Below are positions 34,932-42,273 of a stretch of DNA of 42,321 nt, piece after piece (within the stretch, counting starts at the first letter, position 1; each line of letters starts with the position of its first letter). Where the stretch lies: the NCBI GenBank assembly GCA_015061185.1, contig SUWZ01000029.1:1-42321 (forward strand), in the 5' to 3' direction. Position numbers and translations under genes: made by a program. Below the pieces are notes generated by a model. The model did not search any database and had not been told where the DNA came from. It saw only the letters and a program-made list of their open reading frames with translations. The DNA is from Bacteroidales bacterium (GTDB lineage Bacteria > Bacteroidota > Bacteroidia > Bacteroidales > Paludibacteraceae).

Positions 34932-35459
34932 TTAAAGTGAAAGTAAGCCTTCTGGCAAACTCATTATTATTTTTTTTCTTTGTTCGTCAATATTAACAAC
35001 AAAATCGTCTGACGCAGGAATAATCAACTCGTTTTTATTCTTATCATGTAACAAGAATAGAACATTTTCTGTTGTGTCATCAATGTCAACAACCTCGCCA
35101 ATGAATTGCTCCTCTTCAGTAAAAATTGAAAAACCTATAAAGTAACTATTACCTTCCAACTCTGATGCGTCTATTCCCTCCGTAAGGAATTTTTTATGGA
35201 TGTAAATATCTCTTTTGATTAACTCTTTAGCATCCATTTCATTTTCTATCCCTTTTAGGGAAAATAGGTAGGTGTTCTCATTTTTATATCGATACTCTTC
35301 AATAAAAAATGGAATGAATATACCATCCGTTTCGGCTACTATATAGGGAGTTTCACACTCTTCGAATAGCTCAGAATTTACGTCGATCTCTAATTCGCCA
35401 TTCAATCCATGCGATTTAGTGATTTTACCAATATGTACTAATTCTTCCCTTGCTATCAT
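34932..35459 (-). CDS. rimM: Ribosome maturation factor RimM
   Basis: A 175-residue RimM, which binds ribosomal protein S19 and helps mature the 30S head. The N-terminal barrel opens with HIGKITKSHGLNGELEI (12-28). The C-terminal PRC-barrel has GNSYFIGFSIFTEEEQFIGEVVDI near 103-126 and closes with ELIIPASDDFVVNIDEQRKK. It is the first gene of the run to dipeptidyl peptidase III. In many bacteria rimM is next to rpsP and trmD; here it is next to rlmB and an RluA-type gene. Confidence 0.94.
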   Translation of the reverse strand: MIAREELVHIGKITKSHGLNGELEIDVNSELFEECETPYIVAETDGIFIPFFIEEYRYKNENTYLFSLKGIENEMDAKELIKRDIYIHKKFLTEGIDASELEGNSYFIGFSIFTEEEQFIGEVVDIDDTTENVLFLLHDKNKNELIIPASDDFVVNIDEQRKKIIMSLPEGLLSL

Positions 35460-35482
35460 AATTTATGATTGGTTTATTTTGC

Positions 35483-35490
35483 AAATTTAG
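35483..35490 (-). promoter_or_regulatory. -7 box of the rimM operon promoter
   Basis: TAAATTTG on the minus strand fits TAnnTTTG and lies 24 bases before the rimM ATG. Confidence 0.55.
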
Positions 35491-35676
35491 TTTCTTTTAA
35501 TCAAAATATGAAATTTTAGGACTGAATAGATGGTTTATTCTTTAAATTTATTATAGGGTAAGTTTAAGAGAAATATTACCTAAATTATTTTCTTTCGTGA
35601 GGCTATAGGTCTATTTCAATTTCAATGTTTACAGAAAATGTTTTTTTTGATATTTTTTTATTTTTAAAGATATTTT

Positions 35677-35710
35677 TTTGTGGTTTATTCTATTTTTAAT
35701 ATTATATTTG
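35677..35710 (+). promoter_or_regulatory. Strong promoter of an orphan small transcript
   Basis: TTTG at 35677-35680, a 22-base spacer and TATATTTG at 35703-35710, close to the Bacteroidota TTTG-N19-22-TAnnTTTG consensus, with no gene directly behind it. Confidence 0.7.
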
Positions 35711-35716
35711 CAAAAT

Positions 35717-35828
35717 CAATGATGAAGATTGTTGATTTAAAGTGTAATAATGGTTTTTTGGTAATGAACTTTAATTATGAAAATCTACTGTTTTGGGAAG
35801 AACTTAGGTTCTTCTCAAAACATTTTTT
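35717..35828 (+). ncRNA. Candidate orphan small RNA, about 112 bases
   Basis: Transcription from the promoter at 35677-35710 would start near 35717 and meet a terminator 73-112 bases later: stem TGTTTTGGGAAGAAC at 35789-35803, loop TTAG, complementary arm at 35808-35822 (one G-T pair) and TTTTTT at 35823-35828. A 65-codon frame crosses the region but runs through the promoter and terminator, so a protein is unlikely. The length fits a regulatory small RNA. The family is not recognised. Confidence 0.6.
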
Positions 35829-36256
35829 GATAATCCCTGAATTTAATAAATTCAAAAATCTGCGAAATAAATTTTAGCCTGTACTTTTTTAATTGTTCTT
35901 TCTACAAAATTTGAGTTGTGTTCTTTTTTTGGGTGATGTTCTATACTTGAAATAATCATTCATCCTAAATTTGTTAACACTTGGTTTGATACACCCTTGT
36001 GAATTATACTAAATCAGAATTGAACCATATATGAATAGTTGGGTATGGTTAATTTTATTGAAGGTGTATTTAGAGTATTCTATATTATTATATATTGATG
36101 AATTTTACTTTGTTTGTCAAAGTTGGGATTGTCATTTTTTTTTAATTTTATGTAGGGTAGTTGGAAATGTTGCTTTTTTCGATGGAATGGGATAATTTTG
36201 AATTTAATTTCCATGCAAATGAATTTTTATTCTATGCTTTCAATGATTTTTTAGTT

Positions 36257-36459
36257 TACTTTTGCTTTACAATGATGGAAGGAATTATTTCTATTCAATT
36301 GTTCTTTAATTAGTGTAATAAAAAGAAGAATTATTTATTCTTCGAAAAGAAATAAAATAAAATCACATCAGAAGACTTTTAGAAAACCACAAAGGGGTGA
36401 GATAGCTGTGAAGCCATCTTGTTCCGAAAAAAAAGGAAACCTCAAAGTTTCCTTTTTTT
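36257..36459 (+). ncRNA. RNA-like repeat R, copy 1
   Basis: TACTTTTG at 36257-36264 (TAnnTTTG) starts the unit. A block at 36336-36393 is 57/58 identical to 37337-37394. It is followed by a hairpin with loop AGCTGTGAAGCC (36404-36415) closed by a 10-bp stem 36394-36403/36416-36425 (four G-T pairs), then a terminator GGAAAC-CTCAAA-GTTTCC-T7 at 36435-36459. It looks like a complete transcription unit of about 190 bases. No open frame of note. Family unknown. Confidence 0.7.
36435..36459 (+). terminator. Terminator of repeat R copy 1
   Basis: Perfect 6-bp stem GGAAAC/GTTTCC, extended by the A-run pairing with the T-run, loop CTCAAA, then seven T. Confidence 0.85.
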
Positions 36460-36583
36460 ATTTCTCTATCATCTTCTTTTTTGGTAATCCAGGTCATCAT
36501 CTATAAAAGAATATAGTGAAGATCTTTGAAGACTATTTTGTTAGGGTTATTTTTATTAAATGAGAGGTTGAAAGTAACAATAT

Positions 36584-36701
36584 TAAGATTTGCTCTAACA
36601 AAAATGTAGTAATAGTAATAAAATATAGAATCACTGCAGAAGACTTAAAAAATACACTAAGGTAAGATAGCTGTGAGGTTCTTTTGCTTTCATTTTTTTT
36701 T
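36584..36701 (+). ncRNA. RNA-like repeat R, copy 3 (degenerate)
   Basis: Retains AATCAC, CAGAAGACTT (36637-36646) and the loop core AGCTGTGAGG (36669-36678), then a T9 run. The stem around the loop is short (about four pairs with a mismatch) and the upstream box reads TTAAGATTTG. The ~40 bases after it (GTCTAACTTAAG...AAATTGCTCT) match those after copy 2, so a longer unit was duplicated. It is probably a decaying copy. Confidence 0.5.
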
Positions 36702-36787
36702 GTTAATATGGTTGTCTAACTTAAGCAAATTGCTCTTTAAATGAGCTTGACCATATCAGTTTAACTTCTATTGAATAGATATTCTTA

Positions 36788-37180
36788 GAAGTTGTTTGAA
36801 TTTTATTTCGAGCCTATTTGAGAGAGATTTTTAAATCTATTTTTTGTCTTCTTTTGCATAAAATAGTGGACTATTATCAAAAAAGGAGAATAAAAATAGG
36901 TTTAAGGTGAGTTCTATAAATTCACCGTTTAAAATTTAAAAAGTGTACATCGAAGATTGATAAACTTTTCGGTACTTTTTGATTTATTTTGGCAAATTGC
37001 TGCTTGTCAGTCGGTCACAGTACTTGCACTGCTTCCTTCTTTCGCACAGCAATTTACTCGAAATAAATTCAAAAATTCCACGAATTGAATTTTTAGAACC
37101 CACCTAAAAGAATCTCAAAGATGCCGAAAATAAGAGAGTGAAACTCTAAATTTTTTTTTTAATAAAATTTAAACAGCTTC
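36788..37180 (+). mobile_element. MITE A (393 bp) interrupted by nested MITE B
   Basis: Terminal inverted repeats of about 20 bases (GAAGTTGTTTGAATTTTA... against ...TAAAATTTAAACAGCTTC, 2 mismatches) and a 3-base direct repeat TTA at 36785-36787 and 37181-37183. No transposase frame. Its outer parts (36788-36905 and 37105-37180) match the 190-bp copy at 40882-41071 almost base for base. The TNA-type 3-base duplication fits elements moved by IS5-family (IS1031-like) transposases, a family inference. Confidence 0.85.
36906..37104 (+). mobile_element. MITE B (199 bp) nested inside MITE A
   Basis: Ends GGTGAGTTCTATAAATTCA and TGAATTTTTAGAACCCACC are inverted repeats (about 17/19). It is flanked by TAA at 36903-36905 and 37105-37107. 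The MITE A copy at 40882-41071 has the uninterrupted site: removing B and one TAA restores that sequence with a single base difference. B contains an inner inverted repeat AAATTGCTG/CAGCAATTT. A related B sequence lies in the relic at 13550-13665. Confidence 0.85.
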
Positions 37181-37250
37181 TTATAGTTTGTTTGCTATTT
37201 TATTACATTATAATGGTAATTTTTTCCATGTTAAAAATGATTTGAATTCT

Positions 37251-37462
37251 TACTTTTGTTGTACTGATTCTTAAGGAGTTGAGTCTTTATTCAGTTTTGA
37301 TTTATAAATGATATAAAATAATGAAGAGTAAATTTTTATTCTTCGTAAAGAAATAAAATAAAATCACATCAGAAGACTTTTAGAAAACCACAAAACAGGA
37401 CAGCTGTGAAGCCTTCCTGTTTTAACAATAAAAATGGAGGTGTTTTTGCCCCCATTTTTTTT
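37251..37462 (+). ncRNA. RNA-like repeat R, copy 2
   Basis: Same layout as copy 1: TACTTTTG at 37251-37258, the near-identical block 37337-37394, then a hairpin with core AGCTGTGAAGCC (37402-37413) closed by a fully Watson-Crick 9-bp stem AAAACAGGA-type (37392-37400/37415-37423) whose sequence is unrelated to that of copy 1, then a terminator. Loop and leader are conserved while the stem changes in a paired way, which is a sign of a selected RNA structure. Confidence 0.7.
37433..37462 (+). terminator. Terminator of repeat R copy 2
   Basis: Stem ATGGAGG/CCCCCAT with one A-C mismatch, loop TGTTTTTG, then eight T. Confidence 0.75.
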
Positions 37463-37502
37463 ATATATAAGGAGAGCGTCCGACTTAAGTAGAAATTGTT
37501 CT

Positions 37503-37670
37503 GTTTTGCTGAACATGGAAAGAGGCTGTTATGTGGAGGTGTTCTCTGTATTAGGAACAAACATAGCTTAGAAAACAGCAGAATCTGATGTGATGGAAGT
37601 CTCTGTTTCTGCTCCGGGAATCTATATTGTCAAGACCGGTTCGGTGAGCAGGAATGTGGTTGTAGAGTGA
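37503..37670 (+). pseudogene. Remnant of a T9SS type A sorting-domain gene 3' end
   Basis: One frame reads ...ERGCYVEVFSVLGTNIA, a stop at 37566-37568, then KTAESDVMEVSVSAPGIYIV and KTGSVSRNVVVE ending at 37668-37670. This matches the C-terminal sorting domain of type IX secretion cargo (V-Y/F-S-x-x-G ... P-G-I-Y-I-V-K-x-G). Only the last ~55 codons remain, with an internal stop and no upstream gene, so the rest was lost, probably when mobile elements inserted. Confidence 0.7.
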
Positions 37671-37690
37671 TGATAGTCTTCAAATATAAT

Positions 37691-37723
37691 GAGGCTGTCT
37701 AACAACAAAAGTTGGGCAGTCTC
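37691..37723. repeat. Hairpin after the sorting-domain remnant
   Basis: GAGGCTGTCTAAC and GTTGGGCAGTCTC pair over 13 positions with three G-T pairs around a 7-base loop, 20 bases after the remnant's stop. It could be the old gene's terminator or the end of an insertion sequence; GAGGCTGTC ends are common in Bacteroidota IS4-type elements. Confidence 0.5.
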
Positions 37724-37772
37724 TTACCTATAAAACTTATTATTAATCCGTCCAAATTTTTTTTTCAGATTA

Positions 37773-38170
37773 AAGTGCAAGCGACCCCTATGGATGGATA
37801 GTCTTCAGATTATAGAATCGACAACAATAACACTGTTCTCTAATCTTATTTTGAAAGGCACCGGGCGTCAGAGACAGGCAAGAAAAAAGGCAGTATAAAG
37901 GTGCATACGGTCATACTCGCCAATGAAGGTACCATCAAAATTCAAATTTGATTCACTCTGATTGCAAATTTGTTATTGAAGGTTCAGCAAAAACGACTGA
38001 CTCGCCCGTGGTGTTTCTCCGAATTGGCGACTACGGCGTTGATAACGCTGATGAATTATGTTGATTCTACAGTCTGTTTAATAATTCGGAAAAAAGATTG
38101 GGAAATTCCGGTGATTTTAGACAAAAGTACCTTCTCAACCAACACTTTTCTAAAGGGGGGCTTGGAATGA
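37773..38170 (+). pseudogene. Decayed IS4-type DDE transposase
   Basis: IIESTTITLFSNLILKGTG (37809-37865) corresponds to the first catalytic block, with the expected D of DSTTI changed to E. A +1 shift near 37866 leads into TGKKKGSIKVHTVILANEG up to 37930. This is joined directly to TIKIQI, a stop at 37949-37951, and FTLIANLLLKVQQKRLTRPW to 38170, which is the C-terminal end. The N-terminus and the region with the second and third catalytic residues are deleted. The open frame 37970-38170 is only the tail of this relic. Confidence 0.8.
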
Positions 38171-38264
38171 AAAAAAGAAATCTCATCCGCTAAAAATAAG
38201 CGTTTGAGACCCCTTTTTAGGTTTTATCGTAACTAATAAAATAATTATGGTTCTATTGAAATAG

Positions 38265-38304
38265 AAAGGTTGGAAGGAGTATTGTAAAACTTTCCAACCT
38301 TTTT
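38265..38304. terminator. Terminator of the xylanase gene (bidirectional)
   Basis: An 11-bp stem AAAGGTTGGAA/TTCCAACCTTT with a 16-base loop, T-rich on both sides, 9 bases after the xylanase stop. Confidence 0.8.
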
Positions 38305-38312
38305 AAGATGGA

Positions 38313-40334
38313 TTAATCATTTACCACAACCAATTGGTTCAAGCCATTTTCGCAACGAACCAAGTAGACTCCCTTCTTGAGGGATTCTTTCAACACCGAT
38401 AGATTTCCATTATCAATGTACGCAGAAGTAATCAAAGACCCTTGTAGAGAGTAAACTTTGCAAATTCCGGAGAAGTTTGAAATAGCGTCAACCTCTTTCA
38501 CACCAGTTTCTTCAGAGGTAGTGGTTGAAGTGAACACAAGTTTGTCGATGTTACAGTATGCGTTGGTGATAGTCAGGCGGAGGATATGTTCTCCCTCAGT
38601 CAAATTAAATTCTCCGAGTTCGATTTCCTCGAAAACGCTCCAATCATTGTCTCCGGTTTGAGGAACTGATACTTTTTCAACCAACGCTTTTCCATCCATG
38701 TCGAGTTTGAATCCTGAACCCTCTAATCCAGAGGCAGCGAATGCAGAAAGTTTATATTCACCGCTCTTTTTGACATTGACGGTATATTCAAGCCATTCGT
38801 CTGCCGCAGTATAACCGATTGCATAGTTATCGCCTCCGGTCACAATGTCGACACCACCATCTTGAATTTTAGCATCACCTTCATTTTCGCTGTCACTATC
38901 TTGGTAAACCTCGCCTTCGCAACCTTTGTCGAATGCTTCAACCTCGATTGTTCCAGGAATTGCTGCAGGCTCTCCGTTGAATGGAGCACGTGCTTCGCAT
39001 ACGAAGAATTCAGTTGAACATTCAACAGTGTTGCCGCTCTTGTCATAAGCAACGACCTTGATTGTATGGAAACCTGTTTCTGTTGGAGTATACTCCCATA
39101 CATAAGGTTCTACATACTTATTGACAAGCAAGCTGTCTCCGTCGAATATGTCAATATGGTCTATATCTCCTTCAAATTTTGCAGAAGCGGTGATTGTGAC
39201 TGTTTCTCCAAATTTAATAGTTTTGGATGACAAGTTCACAGTTGCTGATGGCCCACCACAATATGGACTTTTTGCATTTATAGCCGCATCAGTTGCCATA
39301 TAGCTCTTAAGCCACTTCATACCGCTACGATCAGCTCCCGAGCTTGTTACCAAACCTGTGTTATCTCTCCAAGTTGCTCCATTCACAAATCCCCAGATTG
39401 TGATACCTGCTACGTAATCAGCCTCCCACATTGGCTTGAAGGTATTCTTCATGATTGTTTCATAAGTGTTATCATCACCCTGTGAAATATCATACTCAGT
39501 GATGTAGCATAGCAATTCTTTGCCCCCTTTCTGAGTGATGCTATTGTGAATCTCCTTCAAAGTGTTGCCAAAGTTTGTGATTTGATTGTTTTTGTAATAG
39601 TCATCCAAATCGTGACTCTGGTGTCCATAAGCATCAATTGGTGCGCCTTGCTGTACCAAAGAGGCTACAAGGTCAATAAAATCATTTTTTTGCCAAGTGA
39701 AAGTGTTATAATCATTATAGATCAACACCGCATTAGGGAATCTCTTACGAGCCATTCTGAATGCCTCGGCAATCCACTTGTAGTCATATGGATTGGTGCT
39801 GTTACCCAATGCCTGACTCAAAAGTTTCTTGAAATCAGCACATGAGTGACCATTTTCTGTCCCTTCAGCATGTCCTCTTATCGCCTCATTGACAACATCG
39901 ATCATTGACAAATCAGGATATTTGATAGCGACAGCATCCATCCAATATTCCACCTGCTGCTTTAATTCTGTAGCGGAACAATTTGCCAAACATGAAGGCC
40001 ACTGACTAGTCCAAAGAAGACAGTGGAATTTGAACAATACTCCGTTCTCCTTACACCATTTGTAATGAGCATCCGAATTTTTCCAGTTCCATTTCTGGAC
40101 ACCCTCCTGAGCACTGTTCACCTTACAATTAACGATAGATCCCCACTTGGATTCATTTTCACAAGTGAGCTGATCCCACAATGCCTCATACCTCAGACCT
40201 CCAACATTAGGTTGAATCTGTCCGCGTGTGGTGATATTTCCCAAAAACTTACATGGGTTTTGATTTAGTTGTGCGAAACACGCAACACTGAAAGAAAATA
40301 GGAGAACTCCTATTGCCAGTAACCGTTTTTTCAT
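38313..40334 (-). CDS. Secreted GH10 endo-1,4-beta-xylanase with CBM6-like module and T9SS tail
   Basis: A 673-residue modular enzyme that cuts beta-1,4-xylan. Residues 1-21 form a signal peptide (ending CFAQ). GH10 catalytic domain: about 25-350 with acid/base E150 (DVVNEA), nucleophile E280 (ITEYDIS) and the WGFVNGATWRDN block near 314-325. An Ig-like domain lies at ~362-448. A carbohydrate-binding module of CBM6 type lies at ~462-610 (IEVEAFDKGCEG ... GYTAADEWLEYTVNV). A type IX secretion C-terminal sorting domain is at ~620-673 (KVYSLQGSLI ... LKKGVYLVRC). It would be exported through T9SS and placed on the surface or released. No PUL (susCD) genes flank it; it sits between mobile-element-rich regions, so it may have been transferred or stranded. 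Confidence 0.95.
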   Translation of the reverse strand: MKKRLLAIGVLLFSFSVACFAQLNQNPCKFLGNITTRGQIQPNVGGLRYEALWDQLTCENESKWGSIVNCKVNSAQEGVQKWNWKNSDAHYKWCKENGVLFKFHCLLWTSQWPSCLANCSATELKQQVEYWMDAVAIKYPDLSMIDVVNEAIRGHAEGTENGHSCADFKKLLSQALGNSTNPYDYKWIAEAFRMARKRFPNAVLIYNDYNTFTWQKNDFIDLVASLVQQGAPIDAYGHQSHDLDDYYKNNQITNFGNTLKEIHNSITQKGGKELLCYITEYDISQGDDNTYETIMKNTFKPMWEADYVAGITIWGFVNGATWRDNTGLVTSSGADRSGMKWLKSYMATDAAINAKSPYCGGPSATVNLSSKTIKFGETVTITASAKFEGDIDHIDIFDGDSLLVNKYVEPYVWEYTPTETGFHTIKVVAYDKSGNTVECSTEFFVCEARAPFNGEPAAIPGTIEVEAFDKGCEGEVYQDSDSENEGDAKIQDGGVDIVTGGDNYAIGYTAADEWLEYTVNVKKSGEYKLSAFAASGLEGSGFKLDMDGKALVEKVSVPQTGDNDWSVFEEIELGEFNLTEGEHILRLTITNAYCNIDKLVFTSTTTSEETGVKEVDAISNFSGICKVYSLQGSLITSAYIDNGNLSVLKESLKKGVYLVRCENGLNQLVVVND

Positions 40335-40566: not shown

Positions 40567-40881
40567 TTGTAAATTGCCTATTTTTAGAAAATTTAAAATT
40601 AGATCTGATTTTAATGTTAAATTTTAGATTTTTTTTGTATGTTTGTTTTATACTTAATGGGTAAGTAGTAAATTTAATAATTAGCCAGTATTTTTTATAC
40701 ATTGCTTAATTTAGAACTATTTACACTATTAAAGAAAACTATTATTATGCTTTTTTTGCTTTGATTATTTTACCATGATTTATAGGGTTATTTTCCCAGG
40801 TCAAGAATCTAGTATTTAGACCATAGCATAATTAGCTCCCATGTTTAGTTTATTTTTGTAATTAAGGAAAGATGGTCTTTA

Positions 40882-41071
40882 GAAGTTGTTTAAATTTTAT
40901 TTCGAGCATATTTGAGAGAGATTTTTAAATCTATTTTTAGTCTTCTTTTGCAGAAAATAGTGGACTATTATCAAAAAAGGAGAATAAAAATAGGTTAAAA
41001 AGAATCTCAAAGATGCCGAAAATAAGAGAGTGAAACTCTAAATTTTTTTTTAATAAAATTTAAACAGCTTC
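40882..41071 (+). mobile_element. MITE A, uninterrupted copy (190 bp)
   Basis: Inverted ends GAAGTTGTTTAAATTTTATT and AATAAAATTTAAACAGCTTC (one mismatch), flanked by TTA at 40879-40881 and 41072-41074. Apart from the absence of element B it is nearly identical to 36788-37180. It ends 74 bases before the leucine-rich-repeat gene. The rest of the 811-base gap between xylanase and this gene holds only the gene fragment at 40429-40566 and AT-rich sequence. Confidence 0.85.
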
Positions 41072-41145
41072 TTAGCATCATTTAAACTTAATTTTAGATA
41101 AATACTATCTAATTAAGATTCTGTAAAATTTTTATAAATTAAAAT

Positions 41146-42273
41146 ATGAAAAATAAAGTTTTAATATCTATTACGGCATTAATCATCTCTATTTCAATTA
41201 GTGCCGGAGGTTTTAACATGATTGTGAAACTTCGAAATGGAGAGAATTTTGTGTACAATACAGATGAGATAGAGGAAGTTTTCTTTGAAAAGAATGAATT
41301 TGAAGAAGAGGGCATATTAGATGTTCTAGATTCTCCCTTAAAGTTTGAGATTACTTCAGATTCTACGGTAAAAGTTATAAGAGATGTTTCGTATGAAAGT
41401 TTTACAGAAGTAGATATCCCATGTAGAGTCAGAATTGATGATAAGATATATAGTGTAACGGGTATTGGTCGATTGGCCTTTGCGTATGCCGTTGATTTAT
41501 CAAACGTTAAACTTCCTTCAACTCTTACAACTATAGATTACGGAGCTTTTAAGAATTGTTACGATTTAAATTCCATAGAAATTCCGGAAAGTGTTACACA
41601 TTTAGGTTCTTCAGTGTTTGCTTTCTCTAAATTAGAATCTGTTAATATCCCATCTGCTATTACATCTATCAGTGATAGTTTGTTCATAGGTTGTAATTTA
41701 AGTAACTTTAGAATACCTTCCTCAATTACTTCGATTGGGAAATATGCATTTGCATACAATAAAGCAAGTTTTACCAGCATAGAAATCCCGTCAAGTGTCC
41801 AAGATATTGGAGAGTATGCTTTTAAGGGTACGTATTATTTGAAAAGTGTAGTGTTATCATCAAATATCACTCAAATTAAAGAAGGAGTATTTTATGACTG
41901 CGCTATTACCAATATTACGATCCCGGCAAGCGTTAAAAGCATTGGAAAGAATGCTTTTTGTGTTGCTGATTTGGAAGAAATAGATATTCCCTCTAATGTT
42001 GTTTGTATAGGAGATAGTGCATTTGGTTATTGTGCTTTAACCCGTGTTTCTATTTCAGATAGTATTGCTTTTATAGGAAATGGAGCATTTTGTTTTAATG
42101 AGTTTACCAGCATTGATATACCTTCCAGTGTTACTAATATATCACCTTCTGCTTTTAGGAGTTGTGATGAATTAGTTAGCATAAGTGTTGCTGCAGAAAA
42201 TCCTAATTACTCTTCTTATGGCGGTGTATTGTATAATAAAAATGCGGCGTATAGGTCAATTTGCAGGCTGTAA
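41146..42273 (+). CDS. BspA-type leucine-rich-repeat surface protein (probably 3'-truncated)
   Basis: A 375-residue protein with a signal peptide (1-20, ISISISAGG), a linker of ~75 residues and about ten LRR_5 repeats from residue ~90 on, each about 22 residues with the pattern I-x-I-P-S-S-V-T-x-I-G-x-x-A-F. BspA-like proteins are surface adhesins and are often T9SS or lipoprotein-anchored. Here the frame ends within a repeat, right after AENPNYSSYGGVLYNKN, and a tail AAYRSICRL is encoded by a 20-base sequence that is repeated 41 bases on. The usual C-terminal sorting domain is missing, so the gene is likely broken or misassembled at this point. Confidence 0.85.
   Translation: MKNKVLISITALIISISISAGGFNMIVKLRNGENFVYNTDEIEEVFFEKNEFEEEGILDVLDSPLKFEITSDSTVKVIRDVSYESFTEVDIPCRVRIDDKIYSVTGIGRLAFAYAVDLSNVKLPSTLTTIDYGAFKNCYDLNSIEIPESVTHLGSSVFAFSKLESVNIPSAITSISDSLFIGCNLSNFRIPSSITSIGKYAFAYNKASFTSIEIPSSVQDIGEYAFKGTYYLKSVVLSSNITQIKEGVFYDCAITNITIPASVKSIGKNAFCVADLEEIDIPSNVVCIGDSAFGYCALTRVSISDSIAFIGNGAFCFNEFTSIDIPSSVTNISPSAFRSCDELVSISVAAENPNYSSYGGVLYNKNAAYRSICRL

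Follow-up and report, generated by a model that had tools for sequence, protein, structure and literature searches.

A probable new family of sibling structured RNAs with a constant leader in two Paludibacteraceae genomes

Introduction

Does a short repeat in one intergenic stretch of a Bacteroidales genome encode a structured RNA, and if so, what kind of RNA would it be? The original prediction had read the repeat as a functional structured RNA of a family that it did not recognise, because leader and loop were kept in the copies while the stems closing the loop changed and still paired. To our knowledge, small RNAs of Bacteroidales outside Bacteroides are little charted, and the locus offers a compact testable case in which a leader and a tetraloop, the presumed working part, are constant and a stem has been rewritten. 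From the sequence comparisons below, the feature is real at the level of both sequence and structure and belongs to a known kind; it is most likely a new, narrowly distributed family of sibling structured RNAs.

Results

Genomic setting and parts of the copies

The window, meaning the whole stretch of 42,321 nucleotides that was analysed, is the complete contig C13 of a 2.9-Mb genome (G000). It holds three copies of the repeat, A (36257-36460), B (about 36600-36702) and C (37251-37462), in a 2.85-kb intergenic stretch between rimM and a GH10/CBM6 gene. The pattern CAGAAGACTT...AGCTGTGA matches G000 at three places, each of them within this stretch, and its reversed-control version has no match in the genome. 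The parts are listed here; copy D belongs to a sister genome and R1 is a model of leader and hairpin, both described below.

34932..35459, minus strand: rimM, flanking the intergenic stretch of the copies
36257..36264, plus strand: copy A, TAnnTTTG promoter-like box (TACTTTTG), starting 112 bases before CAGAAGACTT
36325..36343, plus strand: copy A, 5' hairpin GAAGAAT/ATTCTTC, 7 bp (fold and hairpin search)
36357..36390, plus strand: copy A, 34-base leader shared without change by A, C and D (proposed as a seed or protein site)
36394..36425, plus strand: copy A, 13-position hairpin with GNRA loop GUGA, 12 positions paired (covariation, fold, model R1)
36428..36459, plus strand: copy A, intrinsic-terminator-like site (terminator scan)
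36629..36658, plus strand: copy B (degenerate), leader with CAGAAGACTT at 36637 (pattern match, model R1)
36659..36690, plus strand: copy B, hairpin with 12/13 positions pairable, then a T run; not the minimum-energy fold of B
36787..37181, no strand: 395-bp repeat element between B and C, not part of the RNA (terminal inverted repeats)
37251..37258, plus strand: copy C, TAnnTTTG promoter-like box (TACTTTTG), starting 119 bases before CAGAAGACTT
37321..37346, plus strand: copy C, 5' hairpin (fold)
37358..37391, plus strand: copy C, 34-base leader, identical to that of A (sequence comparison)
37392..37423, plus strand: copy C, 13-position hairpin with GNRA loop GUGA, 11 pairs and 2 mismatches (covariation, fold)
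37430..37462, plus strand: copy C, terminator-like hairpin and T run (fold only; the terminator scan does not have it)
38313..40334, minus strand: GH10/CBM6 gene, the other flank of the intergenic stretch

Copies A, C and D all have a promoter-like box, a 7-bp 5' hairpin, 34 identical leader bases and a terminator-like hairpin. The 58-base block first noticed in A and C was recovered exactly, with 57/58 bases identical between 36336-36393 and 37337-37394. The 5' hairpin, taken as the best 7-bp hairpin near each copy and thus a selection, forms 7/7 pairs also in A of the sister genome (5 Watson-Crick), in C and in D. In A, C and D the core is preceded, at a distance of 95-119 bases, by the TAnnTTTG box, which we take to be the Bacteroidota -7 element and which reads TACTTTTG or TACCTTTG (TACTTTTG in both window copies that have it). 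Of the positions in the intergenic stretch, 4.8% have such a box at 82-115 bases upstream, an interval too short to include the 119 of C. The same string occurs in Bacteroides promoter papers. The terminator scan lists the site of copy A only, and the terminators of C and D were seen in folds. For copy B, neither a TAnnTTTG in the 200 bases upstream nor a 7-bp 5' hairpin in the 70 bases upstream was found, and the scan gave no terminator-like site, so the claim that each copy has its own promoter box and terminator holds for A and C and is wrong for B. This middle copy is the degenerate third copy of the original prediction and keeps its motifs as described there (AGCTGTGAGG at 36669).

A cis-acting leader or riboswitch was rejected, as the window copies are not directly upstream of a same-strand gene. 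No plus-strand ORF of at least 90 aa was found between copy C and 39546, so the window copies do not lead into a gene; the next such ORFs past C are at 39546, inside the opposite-strand GH10 gene, and at 41146. Copy D has a 113-codon repeat-like ORF on the same strand about 90 bases past its terminator.

A fourth copy and rates of change in the sister genome

The sister genome (G012) is a Paludibacteraceae MAG, and G000 is placed in the same genus. In G012, A, B and C occupy the same place as in G000, and a fourth copy, D, is unlinked to them and lies on contig C92, flanked by genes that resemble dacB and a polysaccharide deacetylase (named by reading the ORFs). The 34 leader bases are identical in A, C and D, although D sits on another contig. 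In the D region (L012, 472-1711) the flanks are 92-94% identical between the genomes. The stretch that they enclose measures 1240 bases and includes D in G012, and in G000 it consists of 417 bases of unrelated sequence; since no alignable sequence lies between the matching flanks in G000, D is absent there. Judged by this alignment, the region is one of fast intergenic turnover.

The substitution tests were made on units picked after the genome comparison had been seen. From the box to the second hairpin, C differs at 1/174 sites between the genomes, compared with 101/1332 in the upstream region plus the B-C spacer (p = 3.5e-5) and 29/558 in the B-C spacer alone (p = 0.003), where the rate may not be neutral because the spacer holds a repeat element. 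The A unit is not slow-evolving, with 12 of 175 sites different (p = 0.44 against the flanks); within it the leader differs at 1/50 sites and the hairpin at 4/32, where two positions lose pairing. Leader and hairpin of B differ at three of 62 sites. For the leaders of A and C together the count is 1/97 (p = 0.005 against upstream plus spacer, 0.047 against the spacer alone), and for all three leaders 3/127 (p = 0.014 and 0.125, respectively). On these counts, constraint is visible for C and for the leaders of A and C, and not for the whole of A or for B.

Pairing and covariation in the second hairpin

Over the outer ten stem positions our counts agree with those first reported: all ten are paired in copy A (6 Watson-Crick and 4 G-U), and the copy at 37392-37423 has nine pairs, all Watson-Crick. 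The loop described as invariant needs a different reading. Its sequence AGCTGTGAAGCC is indeed exact at 36404 and 37402, but the 12-base 'loop' folds as GCU-GUGA-AGC, and the minimum-energy folds of A and C have a GNRA tetraloop (GUGA) on three pairs. The second hairpin is thus a 13-position stem with a GNRA tetraloop, and the supposed loop is mostly paired. The tetraloop is GUGA in A and C and GAGA in D, so that GNRA is kept. The stems of A and C both pair as had been claimed, but calling them unrelated is too strong: with crossed arms, the 5' arm of A and the 3' arm of C still make 8 of the outer 10 pairs (2 Watson-Crick), and the 5' arm of C and the 3' arm of A make 7 (6 Watson-Crick). The clearly different stem is that of copy D, where the own arms pair at 10/10 positions and crosses with the other copies at 4-7 of 10.

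The stem was laid out as 13-base arms around a 6-base middle, the arms being chosen after they had been seen, and in this layout the paired positions of 13 number 12 in A, 10 in A of G012, 12 in B, 11 in B of G012, 11 in C (the same in both genomes) and 13 in D. The evidence base is two genomes and six distinct stem sequences, among which 8/13 pairs have two-sided changes and 88.5% of 78 cells are paired. The covariation score of 0.651 was reached by 0/500 shuffles (0.357 +/- 0.055) and compares with 0.123 to 0.333 in slid-partner controls. Pairing at 12 or more of 13 positions occurs by chance in 0.03% of all 32-base stretches of the window and in 0.18% of those in the AT-rich intergenic region. 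The arms are purine- and pyrimidine-biased, and arm shuffling gives p of only 0.007-0.034 per copy; Fisher's combined value of 3.4e-5 treats four paralogs (B included) as independent, which is untrue. Folded from hairpin 1 to the terminator, A, C, D and C of G012 have z scores of -4.0, -5.1, -5.6 and -4.3, and A of G012 folds unremarkably (-1.3). Copy B folds no better than its shuffles (z +0.4), and its best fold is a different one. Of the original 'functional structured RNA', the structured part is supported by the covariation, the re-paired stem of D, the kept GNRA loop and the 34-base identity, and the functional part is what we infer.

Accessibility of the leader and search for targets

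Folding A, C and D from hairpin 1 to the terminator leaves the leader open in each minimum-energy structure. In predicted transcripts with an assumed start just after the box, its mean unpaired probability is 0.77 in A, 0.56 in C and 0.72 in D, and that of CAGAAGACTT is 0.78, 0.30 and 0.62, respectively. In these folding models the leader may be partly hidden in full-length C, which, although the most conserved copy, fares worst. The AUCAGAAGACUU part of the leader can pair with the UCUUC arm of hairpin 1 or with short 5' segments (UGAUG in copy A, GAGUCUU in copy C), and the RNA could thus alternate between a hidden and an accessible seed. That the 5' part works as such a switch, which would make this a lineage-restricted family with a toggling seed in hosts where no RbpB-type protein was found, is a speculative idea from the modelled folds to which we give little credence.

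Complements of a 17-base leader piece, with wobble and 2 mismatches allowed, were found at 61 places, two of them the copies themselves, leaving 59 non-self places versus 45 for the reversed control. Among the 28 of these 59 that were inspected (loci L079-L106), a screen considering ATG starts and frames of at least 80 codons found no clear start-proximal target. Nine of the 28 have the ATG of such a frame near the site, but each frame is already open 18-510 codons upstream, so none of the nine is clearly a translation start.

Searches for further members

No Rfam match at gathering score was found in the window with 4227 models, among which FopS may not be present, in agreement with the family not having been recognised at first sight. 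A permissive scan gave 15 matches, all below their own gathering scores, and the one with the lowest E was CyVA-1 over the copy C terminator (23.4 vs 41.4 bits). Two Bacteroides sRNAs overlap copy C weakly and at chance level, BTnc060 (RF04184; 21.8 bits vs a gathering score of 228.9, E 1.2) and BTnc231 (RF04180; 15.5 vs 80.4 bits, E 3.7).

The exact pattern occurs in 2/101 genomes (the own genome, congeners, family and order), and a 29-base leader with at most 3 mismatches in 2/300 family genomes; both times these are G000 and G012, and the 298 further family genomes, 14 congeners included, had no other carrier of the leader in exact or near-exact search. In genome_contigs (84,980 species; contigs of at least 3 kb) a relaxed leader pattern was matched exactly by five stretches, three in the own record of G012, one in Azonexus and one inside a susC-like gene (L021); the last two are without the RNA architecture and were rejected. 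Within G000, a search for an 18-base leader piece, with 3 mismatches allowed, gave three places in forward and none in reverse orientation beyond the copies (0 and 2 in the reversed control). The three lie, by reading, in a frame without a clear gene and in glyA-like and GTPase-like coding sequence and were dismissed as chance.

Model R1 covers leader and hairpin, was built from six distinct sequences of the seven copies and scores these at 74-90 bits, as expected from its building. Nothing else in 16 genomes of the genus exceeded 31.1 bits, with at most 150 candidates scored of the several hundred to 2478 found at first look per genome, and nine weak hits read by eye were discarded as terminators, coding or AT-rich sequence, none with the architecture. 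At the rimM loci of 13 other congeners, some of which end near rimM at a contig end, nothing scored above 8.9 bits. The susC-like L021 reaches 24.7 bits, owing to the leader by which it was selected.

Viral contigs have neither the exact 30-base leader nor the relaxed leader pattern; a 17-base leader piece is present in 10 of them and a leader-plus-loop pattern in four. When R1 was run over these 14 loci, the sites of the 10 scored up to 26.8 bits, the three alignments shown matching at only about 21 leader bases and skipping the hairpin, and the four leader-plus-loop loci had no hit at their site up to E 5. Four of the five viral sites translated read ITSED(L/F) in an open frame, and the viral matches are therefore taken as codon coincidence or chance. 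Blastn found no match of copy A in phages or of copy C in plasmids. In a literature search, none of the matches listed mentions Paludibacteraceae, which says little and does not prove the family undescribed.

Discussion

Taken together, the copies probably form a new family of sibling regulatory RNAs, seen so far in two genomes. None of the observations that might have overturned the original prediction was made: Rfam matches at gathering score are absent, the stems of the sister genome pair at 10-13 of 13 positions, and inverted repeats do not bound the units. We put a probability of about 0.6 on stand-alone, trans-acting sibling sRNAs with the leader as the working part, a reading in which anatomy, covariation, leader identity and copy number are shown, and transcription, ends, trans action and target pairing are inferred from the DNA. 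By sequence features, A, C and D, and not B, qualify as stand-alone paralogous genes with their own promoter and terminator. Copies A and C, and D in G012, would then be genes for sibling regulatory RNAs of roughly 165-195 nt, each with promoter and terminator of its own. In these RNAs the 5' hairpin (GAAGA.../...UCUUC) and the 13-position GNRA hairpin would bracket the A-rich leader AUAAAAUCACAUCAGAAGACUUUUAGAAAACCAC, and the leader would act either by pairing with target mRNAs or by docking a protein. The hairpins would serve as scaffold and protection, which would explain that the second one keeps mainly its pairing and the type of its tetraloop. Copy B is presumably a decaying sibling.

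The closest parallel is FopS, described in PMC11697453 as a family of paralogous sRNAs in Bacteroides that has been deposited in Rfam. Both would be multicopy sRNA genes of Bacteroidales that have canonical promoters and a terminator, share one region, single-stranded in FopS and predicted to be so here in the folds from hairpin 1, and differ among members elsewhere. In contrast, the FopS consensus consists of a single-stranded 5' stretch and a terminator hairpin, whereas two further hairpins bracket the leader here, and FopS has 12-15 copies per genome compared with 3-4 (PMC11697453). Unlike FopS, the present RNA has no Rfam match, and no RRM_1 (RbpB-type) protein was found at E <= 0.001 in either G000 or G012 (fragmented assemblies, at least 99% complete), while 2/14 controls were positive, among them Bacteroides ihuae. 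The extra hairpins, and the lack of an RRM_1 hit where a control Bacteroides has one, separate the RNA from FopS. The comparison suggests that the RNA works like FopS, from which it does not follow that it is FopS. These genomes are of interest because neither gave a hit for the RRM_1 protein at the centre of the FopS network in Bacteroides. Sibling sRNAs are known from several phyla, and PMC11697453 names OmrA/B, Qrr, LhrC1-7 and a Neisseria pair; these resemble the present case, by description only, in having several similar RNAs per genome with presumably overlapping targets.

Among other explanations, the leader and GNRA hairpin might bind and titrate an RNA-binding protein, with the copies raising the dose and no mRNA pairing involved. 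CsrB and RsmY are protein-titrating RNAs and offer a parallel in principle, and the usual sRNA seed is shorter than 34 bases. The 34-base length of the identical leader and the lack of a clear target in the single screen made would fit such a decoy, but one likely binder was not found, as neither genome has an RRM_1 hit at the above threshold, and we regard the decoy as unlikely, if the least so of the alternatives. It is somewhat less probable still that the copies are repeated DNA, multiplied through duplication, transposition or gene conversion and lacking any function as RNA, with leader identity due to recent copying. The surroundings are rich in repeats, including the 395-bp element between B and C, D occupies a 1240-base intergenic stretch where G000 has 417 unrelated bases, and copy A changes no more slowly than its flanks. 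However, the stem arms differ among copies and yet remain paired, C changes more slowly than its flanks, and no inverted repeats bound the units; an insertion sequence or MITE was rejected because 0/12 inverted-repeat pairs in 35460-38300 bound a unit, the longest one bounding the spacer element.

Tandem multicopy short RNAs also bring to mind the antitoxins of type I toxin-antitoxin arrays such as Sib/Ibs, which would act against short hydrophobic peptides encoded antisense. In at least one of the genomes each of A, B, C and D indeed has an ATG-started antisense ORF of 12 to 28 codons, and the hydrophobic 20-codon ORF of B and the 12-codon ORF of A are conserved between the two genomes. Nevertheless, the peptides of different copies are unlike each other and, by reading, lie in different frames over shared bases, and C of G012, the most conserved copy, is without an antisense ORF, which makes this array very unlikely. 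Even less can be said for a sense mimic of susC-like mRNAs, a sponge competing for sRNA binding there. The leader reads I-T-S-E-D-F and then a stop (I-T-A-E-D-L in B), like a phrase of some SusC plug regions, and one (L021) of the two non-kin leader hits in genome_contigs sits in a susC-like gene in that frame. But the SusC-like protein of the window's own genome reads SSLGEEAMKAQQT there, the same ITSED codons occur in viral genes at 4/5 of the sites translated, and A, C and D have a stop right after in that frame; we consider the sponge highly improbable.

Repeats and other features around the copies

The 395-bp element at 36787-37181 has terminal inverted repeats (AGAAGTTGTTTRAATTTTATT / AATAAAATTTAAACAGCTTCT) and lies at the same place in both genomes. 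With 36690-37260 as query, 61 matching pieces were found in G000 and 48 in G012 (E <= 1e-5), many of them at contig ends, and from the ends compared in 10 loci the element looks like a MITE. A shortened copy with about 200 middle bases missing is found at 40879-41074, just upstream of a BspA-type LRR gene, and several further contigs of G000 have this shortened form as well. Beside copy D there is a repeat of about 80 bases (L012, 997-1076), many copies of which are found in G000, several of them close together in contigs C8 and C41. Directly after the copy C terminator, about 300 bases at 37465-37765 are missing from G012, and the T run there runs on into the downstream stretch. The insert seems, by eye, to hold the end of what we take to be a T9SS-type sorting domain.
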